DNA from: Bacteroidota bacterium | Lineage (GTDB): Bacteria > Bacteroidota > Bacteroidia > Chitinophagales > Chitinophagaceae | Reading direction: 5' to 3' | Assembly: GCA_018266775.1 (NCBI GenBank) | Contig: JAFDZS010000008.1 | Span: 372,001-436,000, forward strand | DNA length: 64,000 bases | Shown: piece after piece, positions 894 to 6,171 of the stretch | How positions within the stretch are numbered: position 1 is the first letter of the stretch | Layout of the letters: each line of letters begins with the position of its first letter | Made by a program: the position numbers and the translations under genes | The notes under the pieces: model-generated | Seen by the model: only the letters and a program-made list of their open reading frames with translations | Told to the model about the DNA's origin: nothing | Database searches by the model: none

Positions 894-1892
894 ATGTCAA
901 GTTTAGAAAAAGCATTGCAGCAAAGAATATTGATCATAGATGGCGCTATGGGCACCATGATACAGCGCCACAAACTGCAGGAAGCCGATTACCGTGGCGA
1001 TCGTTTTAAAGACTGGCCTAAAGATGTGAAGGGCAATAACGACCTGCTCAGTATTACTCAACCAGAAATTATTATTGGTATTCATTTGCAATACCTCAAT
1101 GCCGGTGCAGATATTATTGAAACCAATACCTTCAGTGCCACCGCCATTGCCCAGGCAGATTATGATATGCAGTCGCTGGCTTATGAACTGAATGTTGCAT
1201 CTGCACAATGTGCCAGGGAAGCCATTAAACGAAGTGGTAAAACCGCCTGGGTGGCCGGCGCCATCGGCCCTTTGAATAAAACACTGTCCTTATCGCCAGA
1301 CGTTAATAACCCCGGTTACCGTGCCGTTAGCTTTGATGAAGTGGCCGCTGCCTATACCGAACAGGTAAAAGGTTTGGTGGATGGTGGCGTGGATATCCTT
1401 TTAGTGGAAACCATTTTTGATACGCTCAATGCCAAAGCAGCGATCTATGCTATTAAAAATTATTTCCGCAAAAACAACCTGCCGGAATTGCCCATCATGA
1501 TCAGCGGTACCATCACTGATGCCAGCGGCCGTACATTAAGCGGTCAAACGCTGGAAGCTTTTTATACCTCGGTGGCACATGCCAATCCACTGAGTGTGGG
1601 ATTAAACTGTGCATTAGGTGCTTCAGAAATGCGGCCACATATTGAAGAATTATCGAATATTGCATCCTGTTATGTATCTGCTTACCCCAATGCAGGCTTG
1701 CCCAATGCATTTGGAGAATATGATGAACAACCGCATCAAACGGCACATATTATTGAAGAGTGGGCAGCTAATGGCTGGCTGAATATTGTAGGCGGATGCT
1801 GCGGCACCACACCCGATCATATTAAACATATTGCAGACGAAGTGAAAGCTTTTACACCGAGGCCATTGCCGGTTATGGAAGAAGCGTTATAA
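894..1892 (+). CDS. metH: Methionine synthase, homocysteine-binding half (MetH N-terminal module)
   Basis: Homocysteine S-methyltransferase domain (332 residues) that binds and activates homocysteine through zinc in cobalamin-dependent methionine synthesis. The [11 protein letters not shown] start motif (14-24) and the three zinc-ligand cysteines, C239 (VGLNCA) and C302/C303 ([10 protein letters not shown]), are all present. In many Bacteroidota MetH is split so that this module is its own gene and the pterin, cobalamin and reactivation modules form a second gene. Here the partner is not adjacent: a nuclease-like gene starts only two bases after this stop codon. The three genes look co-transcribed from the promoter at 670-700. 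Confidence 0.93.
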
Positions 1893-1894
1893 AA

Positions 1895-2974
1895 ATGAGT
1901 ACACAAATTACCGGCACGCAGCTTTATAAAAGCATTCAGAATCTGGTAGAACAAAGCAAACGTGTTTTATATACCATTGCTAATGTTACTATAACAGAAA
2001 CCTATTTTAATGTGGGCAGAATGATTGTTGAGCATGAACAGCAGGGAAATAAAAAGGCTGCTTACGCAAAGGCGACATTAGTAACGGTTTCAAAAAAACT
2101 CACTGCAGTATTGGGTAAAGGATTTTCTGTTGATAACCTGGAAAACATGCGCAGGTTTTATCTTTTGTATAAAGAAGATTACAGCAAGCATATTCAAAAG
2201 AATAACATTTCCGAGACAATGTCTCGGAAATTAAGTGCTTCCCAAAAATCCGAGATAGTGTCTCGGAAATCAGGGTCTTCTCCTTTTAAGTTATCCTGGT
2301 CGCATTATGTTTTCCTCTGTAATATTGAAAATATAACTGAAAGAAAATTTTACGAAATAGAAACCGCAGCAGAAAACTGGAGCCTCAGGGAATTAAAAAG
2401 GCAATATGAAAGTGCTTTGTTTGAACGCCTTGCTTTAAGCCGCAATAAAAAGAAAGTGAAGCAACTGAGTAAAAAAGGACATGTTATTGCAACACCTTCT
2501 GATGCAATAAAAGATCCTTATATCCTTGAATTTTTAGGCCTGCAGGAAAAAGAATACTTCTCCCAAACCGATTTGGAAAAAGCCATCATCAATAAGCTGG
2601 AGCATTTCATCCTGGAATTAGGTAAAGGCTTTTTATTTGTTGACAGGCAAAAAAGAATAAAGCTGGACAGTGATGATTATAAAATCGACCTGGTGTTTTA
2701 TCACAGGATATTGCGGTGTTTTGTATTGACAGACCTGAAAATTGGAACATTACAGCATAAAGATATTGGGCAAATGCAGATGTATGTAAATTACTTTGAC
2801 GAAGAAATTAAAGCCGAAGAAGAAAGCAAAACCATTGGTATCATACTTTGCAAAAATAAAAAAGAGAGTACTATTAAATATACCCTTGGAAAAAACAACA
2901 GGCAGATATTTGCCAGTAAATACAAAATATTTTTTCCTGAAAAACAAATTTTACAACTGATAAGGGAACAATAA
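1895..2974 (+). CDS. DUF1016 (YhcG-like) PDDEXK nuclease family protein
   Basis: A 359-residue protein with the two-part DUF1016 architecture: an N-terminal helical, winged-helix-like region (about 10-150) and a C-terminal PD-(D/E)XK nuclease-like region (about 200-350). Recognisable signatures are [43 protein letters not shown] and DLVFYH. D265 and the D280-L-K282 triplet are the probable metal and catalytic positions. Members are suspected DNA nucleases, often found with restriction or mobile DNA; the function of this one is unknown. It sits exactly between the two metH genes (2 bases from the first, 8 from the second) with no promoter of its own visible. Residues 105-127 are encoded by two near-identical 17-base palindromes. 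Confidence 0.88.
2207..2267 (+). repeat. Two copies of a CCGAGACA palindrome inside the DUF1016 gene
   Basis: CCGAGACAATGTCTCGG (2211-2227) and CCGAGATAGTGTCTCGG (2250-2266) differ at two positions. The first extends to 12-base perfect arms (2207-2218 with 2220-2231). Both encode the S-E-x-x-S-R-K pattern of the linker between the two DUF1016 domains. No other copy was noticed in the window. Confidence 0.75.
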
Positions 2975-2982
2975 CACATACT

Positions 2983-5900
2983 ATGAGCATAATAAAACCC
3001 TACTTACGCCTCAGCGGCCTTGAACCCCTGGTAGTTCGCCCGGAAACCAATTTTGTAAACGTTGGGGAACGTACCAATGTAACCGGCAGTAAAAAATTTG
3101 CCCGGCTGATTAAAGACGGCCAGTATGAAGAAGCATTATCTGTAGCCCGCCAGCAGGTGGAAAACGGCGCACAGGTTATTGATGTAAATATGGATGACGC
3201 CTTACTGGATGGTGTACATGCCATGACCACTTTCCTGAATTTATTACAGGCAGAACCCGATATTGCCAAAGTACCGGTAATGATCGACTCTTCAAAATTT
3301 GAAATCATTGAGGCAGGGTTAAAATGTGTACAGGGAAAATGTATTGTAAACTCCATCTCCATGAAAGAGGGAGAAGCCAAATTTATAGACCAGGCATTTA
3401 CCTGTAAAAGTTATGGCGCTGCTGTAATTGTTATGGCTTTTGATGAAGTGGGCCAGGCAGATACCAAAGCCCGTAAAGTGGAAATTTGCCACCGTGCCTA
3501 TAAAATTCTTACCGAAAAAGTAGGGTTTGCGCCGCAGGATATCATCTTCGACCCCAACATATTTGCTGTAGCCACCGGTATTGAAGAACACAATAATTAC
3601 GCAGTGGATTTTATTGAAGCCACCCGCGAAATCAAACAATTAATGCCTTTAACAAAAGTGAGCGGTGGGGTTAGTAATGTATCTTTTTCATTCCGCGGAA
3701 ACGATCATGTGCGTGAAGCCATTCATTCCGTCTTTCTTTATCATGCTATAAAAGCTGGTATGGATATGGGCATTGTTAATGCCGGACAGTTAGTAGTGTA
3801 CGATGAAATTGAACCCACACTGCGCCAGTTATGCGAAGATGTATTGCTGAACCGGAATAACGACCATAACCAGGCTACAGAAGCATTGATCAGTTTTGCA
3901 GAAACCGTAAAATCTAAAGGAAAAGAAATTGCCAAAGATGAAAAATGGAGGGATGAACCGGTTGAAAAAAGACTGGCTCATGCTTTGGTAAATGGCATTA
4001 CCGATCATATTGATGCAGACACAGAGGAAGCACGCCAAAAATATCCCCGGCCACTGGATGTGATTGAAGGCCCATTGATGGATGGCATGAACATCGTGGG
4101 TGATTTATTTGGGTCAGGAAAAATGTTTTTACCCCAAGTGGTGAAAAGTGCCCGCGTGATGAAAAAAGCTGTGGCGGTATTAACGCCTTACATTGAACAG
4201 GAAAAAGCAGAGAAGAAACAATCAGGTACTGATACAACCAGTGTTGAAGGTGCGTCAAAAATATTATTAGCCACTGTTAAAGGCGATGTACACGACATTG
4301 GTAAAAACATTGTGGGTGTGGTATTGGGTTGCAACGGCTATGACATTGTTGACCTTGGTGTGATGGTGCCTGCCGATAAAATCCTGGATACTGCACAAAA
4401 GGAAAATGCAGATATCATCGGCCTCAGTGGTTTGATCACCCCTTCGCTGGACGAAATGGTGCACATTGCCCATGAAATGAAGCGCCGTGGCATGAAACAA
4501 CCTTTGCTCATTGGCGGTGCCACCACCAGCCGCATGCACACCGCTGTTAAAATTGCTGAACAGTATGATAACGGAGTGGTGCATGTACTGGATGCCAGCC
4601 GTAGTGTAACCGTTGCCGGAAGTTTGCTGAATAAGGAACAGAAAGCAGTCTTTCTTTCCGGCATTAAAAAAGAATACACTAAGCTGAGGGAAGATTTCGG
4701 AAATAAAAAATCGGTGAAACAATACCTGCCTTTCACGGAAGCGCAAAAAAATGCAGCGGTTATTCAATGGGAAAATTTTACCCCTGTCGTCCCCGCCTTT
4801 ACCGGCACCAAAACTTTTGACCAATACCCGCTGGAAGAAATTGCAGCTTATATTGACTGGCAACCTTTCTTTATTGCCTGGGAAATGCACGGAAAATTCC
4901 CCGCCATACTCAGCGATAATGTGATTGGTAAAGAAGCCACCAAATTATACAACGATGCAAAGCAATTGCTGCAGCAAATCATCCATGAAAAATGGTTAAA
5001 TGCCAGGGGTGCTGTTGGTTTCTGGCCTGCCAGTAAAGTGGCACCGGATACTGTTGCGATAAAAACTGAATCATCAGTTGTGAATTTGGAATTCCTGCGC
5101 CAGCAAATGAAGAAAGCTGAGGGTCAGCCTAATTTATCGTTGGCGGATTTTATTGCACCGAGCCCAACCCCACAAAGAAGTTCTATAAATGAAAATTCCA
5201 CTAAAGCCCCTTCCCAAAGGGAAGAGGAAGAGAAAGTGGGCTTCGGGTATCAAACGGCAGATCCAGTAACTTATAGGTTGTTGAAAGAGTATGCGCTGCA
5301 ACATAGGAATCAACCTACACAGGCAGAAGAAATTTTATGGAATGCAGTAAAGACAAAACAATTAGAGGGTTTTAAGTTCAGGAGGCAACATATCATCGGT
5401 TCGTTCATCGCTGACTTGGTTTGCTTAGATAGAAACCTGGTTATCGAAATTGATGGATTAATTCATGAATTGCCTGAAAATAAAATTTCTGACACAGAAA
5501 GAACTCAATGGTTGGAAAGCAAAGGATATAAAGTAATCCGGTTTACTAATGAAGAAGTTATTTCCAATACGAAAAAAGTATTAGAAGCAATTCTTGGAAA
5601 CCTGAATACACTATCCAGCAATAAAGTAAGTAACAATCTAAGTTCCCCCTTCGGGGGACAGGGGGCTGACTACCTCGGTGCTTTCGCAGTAACCATTGAA
5701 GGTATTGAACCACATATTAAAAAATTTGAAGCGGCGCATGATGATTATAACAAGATCATTTTGCAGGCACTGGCTGACCGCCTTGCTGAAGCTTTTGCTG
5801 AATTGCTGCATGCAAGAACCAGGAAAGAATTTTGGGGTTATGCAAAAGATGAACATTTAAGTAACGAACAACTGATCAAAGAAGAATATTCCGGTATTCG

Positions 5901-6171
5901 CCCCGCACCGGGTTACCCCGCCTGCCCGGATCATACAGAAAAATATAAACTGTTTGATTTGCTGGGTGGTACTGCCGCTACCGGAATTACGCTTACTGAA
6001 TCACTGGCGATGTATCCTGCTGCTTCTGTTTGCGGCTGGTATTTTGCCAACCCCGGCAGTAAATATTTTGGTGTGGGTAAAATTGACCAGGATCAACTGC
6101 AGGATTATGCACAACGCAAAGGCATGAGTATAGTGGAAGCTACCAAATGGTTAAGGCCGATACTGGAATAA
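2983..6171 (+). CDS. metH: Methionine synthase, pterin/cobalamin/activation half with an inserted DUF559 domain
   Basis: A 1062-residue protein carrying the methyltetrahydrofolate-binding domain ([11 protein letters not shown] near residues 29-39), the cobalamin cap and Rossmann domain (GDVHDIGKN, with H437 as the expected lower cobalt ligand) and the AdoMet-dependent reactivation domain ([15 protein letters not shown] near the end). It transfers methyl from methyl-tetrahydrofolate through cobalamin to the homocysteine held by the N-terminal half. The family pattern is LADFIAP, a short linker, then DYIGAFAV. Here these two blocks (ending at P726 and starting at D896) are separated by about 169 residues that contain a DUF559 domain. 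Without that insert the length, about 890, is usual. The reading frame is intact on both sides, so the enzyme may still be made; activity is not assured. Confidence 0.93.
5161..5667 (+). mobile_element. In-frame DUF559 nuclease-like insertion within metH
   Basis: Residues 727-895 of the MetH C-terminal protein have no counterpart in normal MetH. Residues of about 767-870 form a DUF559 domain, a Vsr-like PD-(D/E)XK endonuclease fold: QAEEILW, FKFRRQ, FIADLVC and VIEIDG are its conserved blocks, with the acidic residues retained. The domain is bracketed by short G/C-rich palindromes, CTTCCC-aaa-GGGAAG (5210-5224) inside AAGCCC/GGGCTT arms (5204-5209, 5238-5243), and CCCCC-TTC-GGGGG (5645-5657) followed by CAGGGGGC. 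Palindromes of this type beside DUF559 genes are familiar in Bacteroidota from my general knowledge. The exact ends are inferred from where MetH homology stops and resumes. Confidence 0.75.

Follow-up and report, generated by a model that had tools for sequence, protein, structure and literature searches.

The window analyzed here, a stretch of 64,000 nucleotides from a Bacteroidota genome (G000; G- and L-numbers denote the genomes and loci that were compared), encodes methionine synthase (MetH) in two halves that are separate genes (positions 894 to 1892 and 2983 to 6171). The second gene is open over its whole length and carries an in-frame insert within the activation domain. The features of the locus are as follows.

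894..1892, plus strand: first metH gene, homocysteine S-methyltransferase module, PF02574 (ORF, Pfam)
2983..6171, plus strand: second metH gene, host of the insert, 1062 aa, with pterin-binding, B12-binding and activation domains (ORF, Pfam)
4750..5160, plus strand: MetH activation domain, part 1, with LADFIAP at its end
5161..5667, plus strand: in-frame insert, 507 bp or 169 codons, stop-free
5207..5227, no strand: left palindrome, CCCCTTCCC-AAA-GGGAAGAGG, with one mismatch; perfect in the relative L053
5284..5604, plus strand: Vsr-like nuclease domain of the DUF559 family (PF04480), in which the conserved positions (T, E, RRQH, D, ExDG, H, D and R) are retained
5644..5666, no strand: right palindrome, TCCCCC-TTC-GGGGGA (5644-5658), followed by the outer tail CAGGGGGC
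5668..6168, plus strand: MetH activation domain, part 2, with DYLGAF at its start and the conserved RPAPGYP stretch

With the last base of LADFIAP at 5160 and the first base of DYLGAF at 5668, the insert is bounded exactly by 5161 and 5667, and the separation of these two MetH blocks by about 169 residues, pointed out in a preliminary description of the window, is borne out to the base. In the Pfam scan, Met_synt_B12 matched the ORF in two stretches (6.5e-114 in all), the later of which covers amino acids 894 to 1047, and DUF559 matched amino acids 768 to 874 (8.4e-33); in the alignment, DUF559 likewise separates part 1 of the activation domain from part 2. The segment from 5161 to 5667 alone matched PF04480 at 4.1e-34 with 117.2 bits, compared to a Pfam cut-off of 20.6 bits, so that it belongs to the family and contains, as had been proposed, a complete DUF559 domain. 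The palindromes described on both sides of this domain were recovered with a qualification: the right one is present (z of -1.8 for folding against shuffles), and the left one has a mismatch in the window (z of -1.6). The perfect left palindrome of L053 folds with a z of -3.8, and for the right end of this relative, folding is on a par with shuffles (z of -0.1). Perfect GC-rich hairpins with arms of at least 7 number zero in the window and 0 to 2 in its shuffles.

Between the two metH genes, at window positions 1895 to 2974, lies a gene for a DUF1016/YhcG PDDEXK nuclease (PADLOC candidate PDC-S02), and DUF1016 matches were also found in the metH loci of G049, G068 and G074 (L117, L137 and L053). 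The gene located between the metH halves in several Flavobacteriia loci is, we assume, four-helix-bundle-like, and the one in L253 and L272 presumably resembles ORF6N proteins. The junction between the metH halves looks like a hot spot.

Searching with the insert-bearing MetH yielded matches in 86 of 90 genomes of the same genus, a few of them probably through DUF559 alone (e.g., G061); among the matches listed, the insert was read through in only four. The site itself was read in 42 genomes of the genus, where it is filled in 4 (504 to 513 nt) and empty in 38 (6 to 48 nt). In the comparison with the MetH genes of relatives, recommended earlier as the means to define the ends, 36 of the 38 empty genes have 6 to 21 nt at this position; relative to the commonest empty site (18 nt), the net gain is ∼489 bp. 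Possession of the same insert by all close relatives, named at the outset as the observation that would count against a mobile element, was thus not found.

An accident of assembly or binning was also considered as an explanation. Many of the compared genomes are metagenome-assembled (MAGs), and one named contig, L217, appears mis-binned: it is labeled Bifidobacterium breve, has a Flavobacterium-type metH with a DUF559 insert, and is probably a misplaced MAG contig. However, independent assemblies also have this MetH site filled, and comparable inserts at different sites are present in isolate genomes, for example, those of Pedobacter sp. Leaf176, Aequorivita echinoideorum and Flavobacterium micromati. 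The window's insert is therefore not an assembly accident, and artefact as the general explanation merits virtually no credence.

The empty sites are not all clean. At the position where the carrier G074 reads NNLSSPIGGQGAWGAD, the empty-site genome G077 reads NDLSSPAEWGAD; because this sequence is similar to both the inner and the outer edge of the right end in carriers, the site in G077 looks like the scar of a lost insert. Solo palindromes without a nuclease were identified at the same MetH site in two genes from other lineages, L251 and L236, both of which hold DUF559 at the MetH B12 linker (this comparison of solo palindromes and named carriers omitted G018 and the duplicate loci L196, L210 and L167). 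On the MetH tree, built for the 42 genomes whose loci ranked with the best matches, the four carriers do not form a host clade (3 changes, 3 forced), and their DUF559 domains form one clade among the genus copies (99/94). When the named carriers were added, vertical descent with losses received an AU p of 0.15, so that an old insertion followed by many losses may be compatible with the data from the MetH site alone.

Two other arrangements were encountered in metH loci. In Flavobacterium micromati DSM 17659 and a Flavobacterium MAG (L246 and L273), a single MetH frame holds two DUF559 inserts, one at the B12 linker and one in the activation domain. In Flavobacterium akiainvivens IK-1 (L226), the MetH frame stops just past the DUF559 insert, the gap being 545 nt and not a multiple of three; this break may reflect a damaged gene, an error in sequencing or a frameshift.

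MetE is absent from G000 (PF01717, zero matches; control positive in 10 of 14), and only one MetH match was detected in this genome. Because of this combination, MetH very likely works with the insert, barring methionine auxotrophy of the organism. The suggestion that the host enzyme may tolerate the insert gains support from an AlphaFold2 prediction for the activation domain in the window (alignment of 28 rows; pLDDT of 74.5, pTM of 0.61, insert linkers below 50), in which the domain keeps its fold, with TM scores, by target length, of 0.86 to the E. coli activation domain 1MSK and 0.87 to the AdoMet-bound 6BM5. The RPAPGYP stretch, which we take to be the AdoMet motif, is mostly invariant in the activation-domain alignment. 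Judging from these fold matches, the geometry of the AdoMet pocket would presumably be left intact.

That the host function must very likely survive would also suit removal of the insert, as an intein, as an RNA intron or by translational bypassing. Removal as an intein was rejected: no intein family, including the Hint splicing domain, was found among the Pfam matches at an E value of ≤0.001, and the ends of the insert, read directly, lack intein residues, among them the His-Asn end. A structured intron was likewise rejected, given that there is no Rfam match at an E value of ≤1 between 4700 and 6200. Furthermore, an intron or bypass requires no open frame, yet nearly all embedded copies that were read have one, L226 excepted. 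Removal of the insert, by whatever route, is thus a very improbable explanation.

The nuclease domain itself is well conserved. In 19 diverse copies, 18 columns are invariant, including T15, E18, R36, Q38, H39, D47, E58, D60, H64 and D73; the invariant acidic and histidine residues are, we assume, a putative Vsr-like active site. The median dN/dS ranges from 0.09 to 0.15 at the seven sites with data (∼0.13 as an overall figure), as calculated only from pairs with a dS of 0.05 to 2 (for MetH, 11 of 55) and, at the B12 linker, from 15 of 61 copies, many pairs having high dS; these values show purifying selection on the DUF559 inserts. Among solved structures, a profile of the copies matched 3HRL (1.4e-30), the homing endonuclease I-Bth0305I (3R3P; 4.4e-6) and PvuRts1I (6e-4). 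Kinship to a known homing endonuclease was also recovered by Foldseek, with 3R3P at 5.5e-4 to 1e-3, and the modeled insert has TM scores, by target length, of 0.89 to 3HRL and 0.74 to 0.77 to 3R3P. Two other origins were considered and rejected, namely, a phage, with weak PHROG matches only (best, 4.8e-6), and a known defense protein, with no PADLOC match for the insert at an E value of ≤0.01.

To follow the family beyond MetH, 93 genomes of the genus were searched, which yielded 70 DUF559 matches in 45 genomes, 52 of them in open frames of at least 350 aa; these 52 include fusions in front of a gene and one 1726-aa frame in G001 with a weak match (5.6e-4), where DUF559 was not found on reading the locus. 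For the control family PF05635, also small and multicopy and detected in 84 of the 90 genus genomes searched, the 150 matches listed include none in a frame of at least 350 aa. PF05635 is the 23S rRNA intervening-sequence-protein family and has twelve copies in G000; some of its listed matches in relatives are within frames of ∼290 to 315 aa, which are perhaps fusions. The preliminary description had proposed a search of the genome for further DUF559 copies. The presence of several copies in G000 was rejected, a single copy being found there.

The hosts were identified by reading the loci and by a Pfam scan of representatives; the names LeuRS, IleRS and ArgB are partly assigned from motifs. 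Within the genus, DUF559 is embedded in MetH (4 genomes), in MetRS at two sites (9 and 3), in LeuRS at two sites (10 and 9 copies), in acetyl-CoA synthetase (Acs) at two sites (3 and 2, with G014 holding both in one 973-aa frame), in a methylmalonyl-CoA-mutase/MeaB fusion (2) and in a type I restriction subunit (1). It is fused ahead of an amino-acid kinase identified as ArgB (4 copies, 5 if L097 is counted), of a nucleotidyltransferase (3) and of the tryptophan synthase alpha subunit (2), and it occurs as standalone genes (9 by tree label, including L097 and the short L109). The order and the named genomes add, as hosts, an IleRS-type synthetase, UvrA, CinA, MnmE, urocanase, an M23 peptidase and a CoA transferase, as well as further MetH sites in the Hcy module, at the B12 linker and at a second position in the activation domain; MetH hosts DUF559 at four sites in all. 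DUF559 of this type was detected in 96 of 248 genomes of the order (E value of ≤1e-15) and, with a closer profile, in 77 of 296 genomes of the phylum (E value of ≤1e-25). The B12-linker site is filled in 61 of 80 named loci, a set selected for DUF559 as the best 80 of at least 502 confirmed candidates, and DUF559 could be a fixed domain there in some lineages. At the second Acs site of G013 (L089), DUF559 is highly diverged and no clear palindromes are left; this is perhaps a decayed or domesticated copy.

In the DUF559 tree of 60 genus copies, the 13 labels (12 host sites plus standalone, with the short L109 omitted) need 13 changes, compared to a minimum of 12 and to 43.5 for shuffled labels; thus, each site was colonized about once. 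The copies from Acs site 2 and those from MetRS site 1 do not form one clean clade each. A larger tree of 132 rows is poorly resolved and does not firmly place the window's copy, and neither the second activation-domain site nor the B12 linker is a single clade in it.

Signs of horizontal spread were found at LeuRS site 1. The ten DUF559 domains from this site form one clade (100/100), and their carriers require 9 changes on the host tree, compared to 8.9 when shuffled; well-supported branches impose at least 6 of these changes. The host tree comprises 36 rows, namely, 20 hand-picked genes without DUF559 (several from genomes that have it elsewhere), 10 carriers at site 1 and 6 of the 9 at site 2, short pieces having been omitted; the corresponding DUF559 tree has 18 rows. 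The hosts G049, G052 and G075, together with relatives that are empty at this site, form one host clade (100/98). A single clade of their DUF559 domains was rejected (AU, 4e-5), as was the DUF559 grouping imposed on the host side (AU, 3.5e-67), the groupings in both cases having been named after the trees were seen. Judged from these phylogenies, horizontal spread into the same site is shown at LeuRS site 1, which is well sampled, and the coexistence of filled and empty alleles with such spread, as expected of a homing endonuclease element, was found there. An empty counterpart was also found for a standalone copy: the locus filled in G016 is empty in the near relative G041, with flanks that are 90 to 92% alike and no clear target duplication seen at this site.

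G/C-rich hairpins bound many of the copies, and the outer tails are, by eye, inverted repeats in most of the LeuRS and MetRS copies inspected, which comprised part of the LeuRS set. The score for inverted ends is above that of the highest control flank (11.5) in 29 of 41 copies and not above it in 12; furthermore, the left and right ends of one copy resemble each other more than do ends taken from different copies at that site (p of 2e-4). Site means for LeuRS and MetRS range from 16 to 28, compared to a control mean of 8.4. Because the copies at the MetH site score no higher than control flanks (mean of 8.4, none of the 4 above the control maximum), the window's copy has hairpins but ends that today do not match as inverted copies; these ends look worn or degenerate. 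In nucleotide conservation, the ends are not uniformly higher than the domain: they are higher in MetH, lower in MetRS site 1, LeuRS site 1, ArgB and Acs site 1, and mixed in LeuRS site 2.

Palindromes also occur alone. The CCCCTCTCC-n-GGAGAGGGG palindrome is dispersed in 29 of 90 genus genomes, with a control count of zero, although it is absent from G000. It is commoner in genomes with DUF559 (24 of 44, versus 5 of 46 without; p of 1e-5), also when the five genomes that have it only in an insert (G051, G052, G076, G081 and G005) are counted as negative (19 of 44 versus 5 of 46; p of 7e-4), both values being uncorrected for kinship and genome size. The right end of the window's insert has three near copies in G000, with 2 to 3 mismatches, each of them in frame in a gene that has no DUF559. 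The products of these genes are an aconitase-type small subunit (L285; in an N-terminal extension, the gene start being uncertain), an alpha-2-macroglobulin-type protein (L286) and a histidine kinase (L287; two palindromes ∼70 nt apart). Hence, palindromic repeats in frame in protein genes, in the manner of the Rickettsia palindromic elements, are found both at the window's insert and in three other genes of G000. At LeuRS site 1, an in-frame palindrome is present in 5 of 20 LeuRS genes without DUF559; these 20 genes were hand-picked, partly for long frames, so that insert-like material is over-represented among them. A first hairpin test at the LeuRS sites fell short of significance (4 in 2445 nt, compared to 33 in 56262 nt; p of 0.067); with a 70% GC cut, chosen afterwards, the counts were 7 versus 5 for arms of 6 (p of 1.4e-7) and 4 versus 2 for arms of 7 (p of 4e-5). 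The MetH activation-domain alignment also points to solo palindromes at insert sites, at the peptide level only. At LeuRS site 2, four loci (L145, L146, L151 and L157) have, by eye, a different family of inverted repeats in frame where others hold DUF559, GTGAATCGTCA-like in L145 and L146.

The solo palindromes raise the question of what moves. The palindromes could be the real mobile units, similar to the Rickettsia elements and moved by another enzyme, with DUF559 as cargo between two of them. Such a reading would account for the three in-frame palindromes of G000, a genome with one DUF559, and for the 5 of 46 genomes that have the CCCCTCTCC palindrome without any DUF559 match. On the other hand, the same DUF559 lineage recurs at a given site in unrelated hosts, presence of the palindrome goes with presence of DUF559, and PF05635, a comparably small multicopy family, is missing from long frames among its listed matches. 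We consider cargo status of the nuclease quite improbable.

Alternatively, DUF559 might be an old, useful part of the host proteins, serving in regulation, nucleic-acid sensing or defense, that was maintained by selection and lost in some lineages. Purifying selection, the conservation of the putative active-site residues and the presence of the MetH B12-linker copy in many Flavobacteriia loci, including isolates, are all in line with such domestication. Against it, the functions of the hosts are unrelated, the carriers at LeuRS site 1 are scattered and the host and nuclease trees conflict, the palindromic ends come with a scar and with solo palindromes at the same sites, and standalone copies possess the same kind of ends. 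Domestication is therefore an unlikely account of the family.

Taken together, the patchy spread at LeuRS site 1, the conflicting trees, the scar, the solo palindromes, the empty site of the standalone copy, the kinship to a homing endonuclease and the model in which the activation domain keeps its fold support the original proposal of an in-frame mobile element that lodges in a tolerant loop and behaves as in homing, without splicing. Thus, DUF559 in Bacteroidota probably represents a family of translated, non-splicing, homing-type mobile elements, as far as genome comparison can tell, and the evidence supports the view that the window's insert is one worn copy of this widespread in-frame element rather than a lone accident.

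Several known systems share some of these traits. The EDxHD, or Vsr-like, homing endonucleases resemble the family in profile and fold (I-Bth0305I, 3R3P), in their site-wise clades, in the filled and empty alleles and in the conflict between host and nuclease trees; unlike 3R3P, which is labeled a mobile intron protein, the nuclease here is translated within the enzyme that hosts it, and neither an intron nor an intein was detected in its surroundings. The putative endonuclease 3HRL belongs to the same family, PF04480, and has the same fold (1.4e-30; TM score of 0.89 by target length). Inteins contain a Hint splicing domain, an N-terminal Cys or Ser and a C-terminal His-Asn, and some carry a homing nuclease. 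Like these nuclease-bearing inteins, the element lies in frame, with a nuclease, inside conserved proteins; unlike them, it has no detected splicing domain and apparently stays in the loop. Rickettsia palindromic elements (RPEs) are palindromic repeats that are in frame in protein genes and translated, and they are not known to encode a nuclease. The in-frame, translated palindromic repeats are shared with RPEs, whereas an RPE is a short repeat without an enzyme gene and the palindromes described here often flank a nuclease, so that the element is not an RPE in this respect. RAYTs belong to the HUH tyrosine transposases, and REPs lie outside genes. The element has in common with the REPIN/RAYT system the short palindromes that occur as inverted pairs and are associated with a nuclease-type gene. 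It differs from that system in its DUF559 nuclease with a Vsr-like rather than HUH fold and in its in-frame placement. In the open-access literature on DUF559 and 3HRL, to the extent of the excerpts covered, 3HRL is described only as endonuclease-like and the family has no stated tie to in-frame insertion in housekeeping enzymes, and titles and abstract beginnings in open PMC literature, a scope outside which subscription journals and most preprints fall, included no DUF559 paper about in-frame insertion.

A probable scheme for the element is the following. It consists of a DUF559 nuclease with the Vsr/EDxHD fold, often between G/C-rich palindromic repeats, and lodges between genes, at gene starts or in frame in loops of housekeeping enzymes. 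When in frame, it would be translated within the host protein and neither spliced nor bypassed, as we infer from the unbroken frames. The nuclease may nick or cut an insert-free allele, or a palindrome already in place, and the element would then be copied in when a filled allele serves as the template for repair, as happens in homing; the reading frame and the position in a loop would be kept because host function presumably selects against other insertions. A possible detail is that the palindromes are the target of the nuclease, which fits the solo palindromes at the same sites.

Homing elements are generally considered to need splicing, as in inteins and introns, or an intergenic place. 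More tentatively, and with somewhat less than even confidence, the DUF559 elements may constitute a separate class of selfish elements: a self-sufficient homing unit that lives within essential enzymes as a translated, non-spliced nuclease domain, whose palindromic ends would serve both as linker peptides and as the nuclease target, with solo palindromes as landing pads and relics. Since filled and empty alleles exist in related species, the idea that the inserts are homing units is directly testable. If these are homing units, housekeeping genes would be colonizable without splicing when the element folds as an independent loop domain. The unusual domain fusions that aminoacyl-tRNA synthetases and B12 enzymes show throughout the phylum would then be accounted for, natural insertion-tolerant sites would be revealed in well-known enzymes, and the DUF559 family would gain a function.
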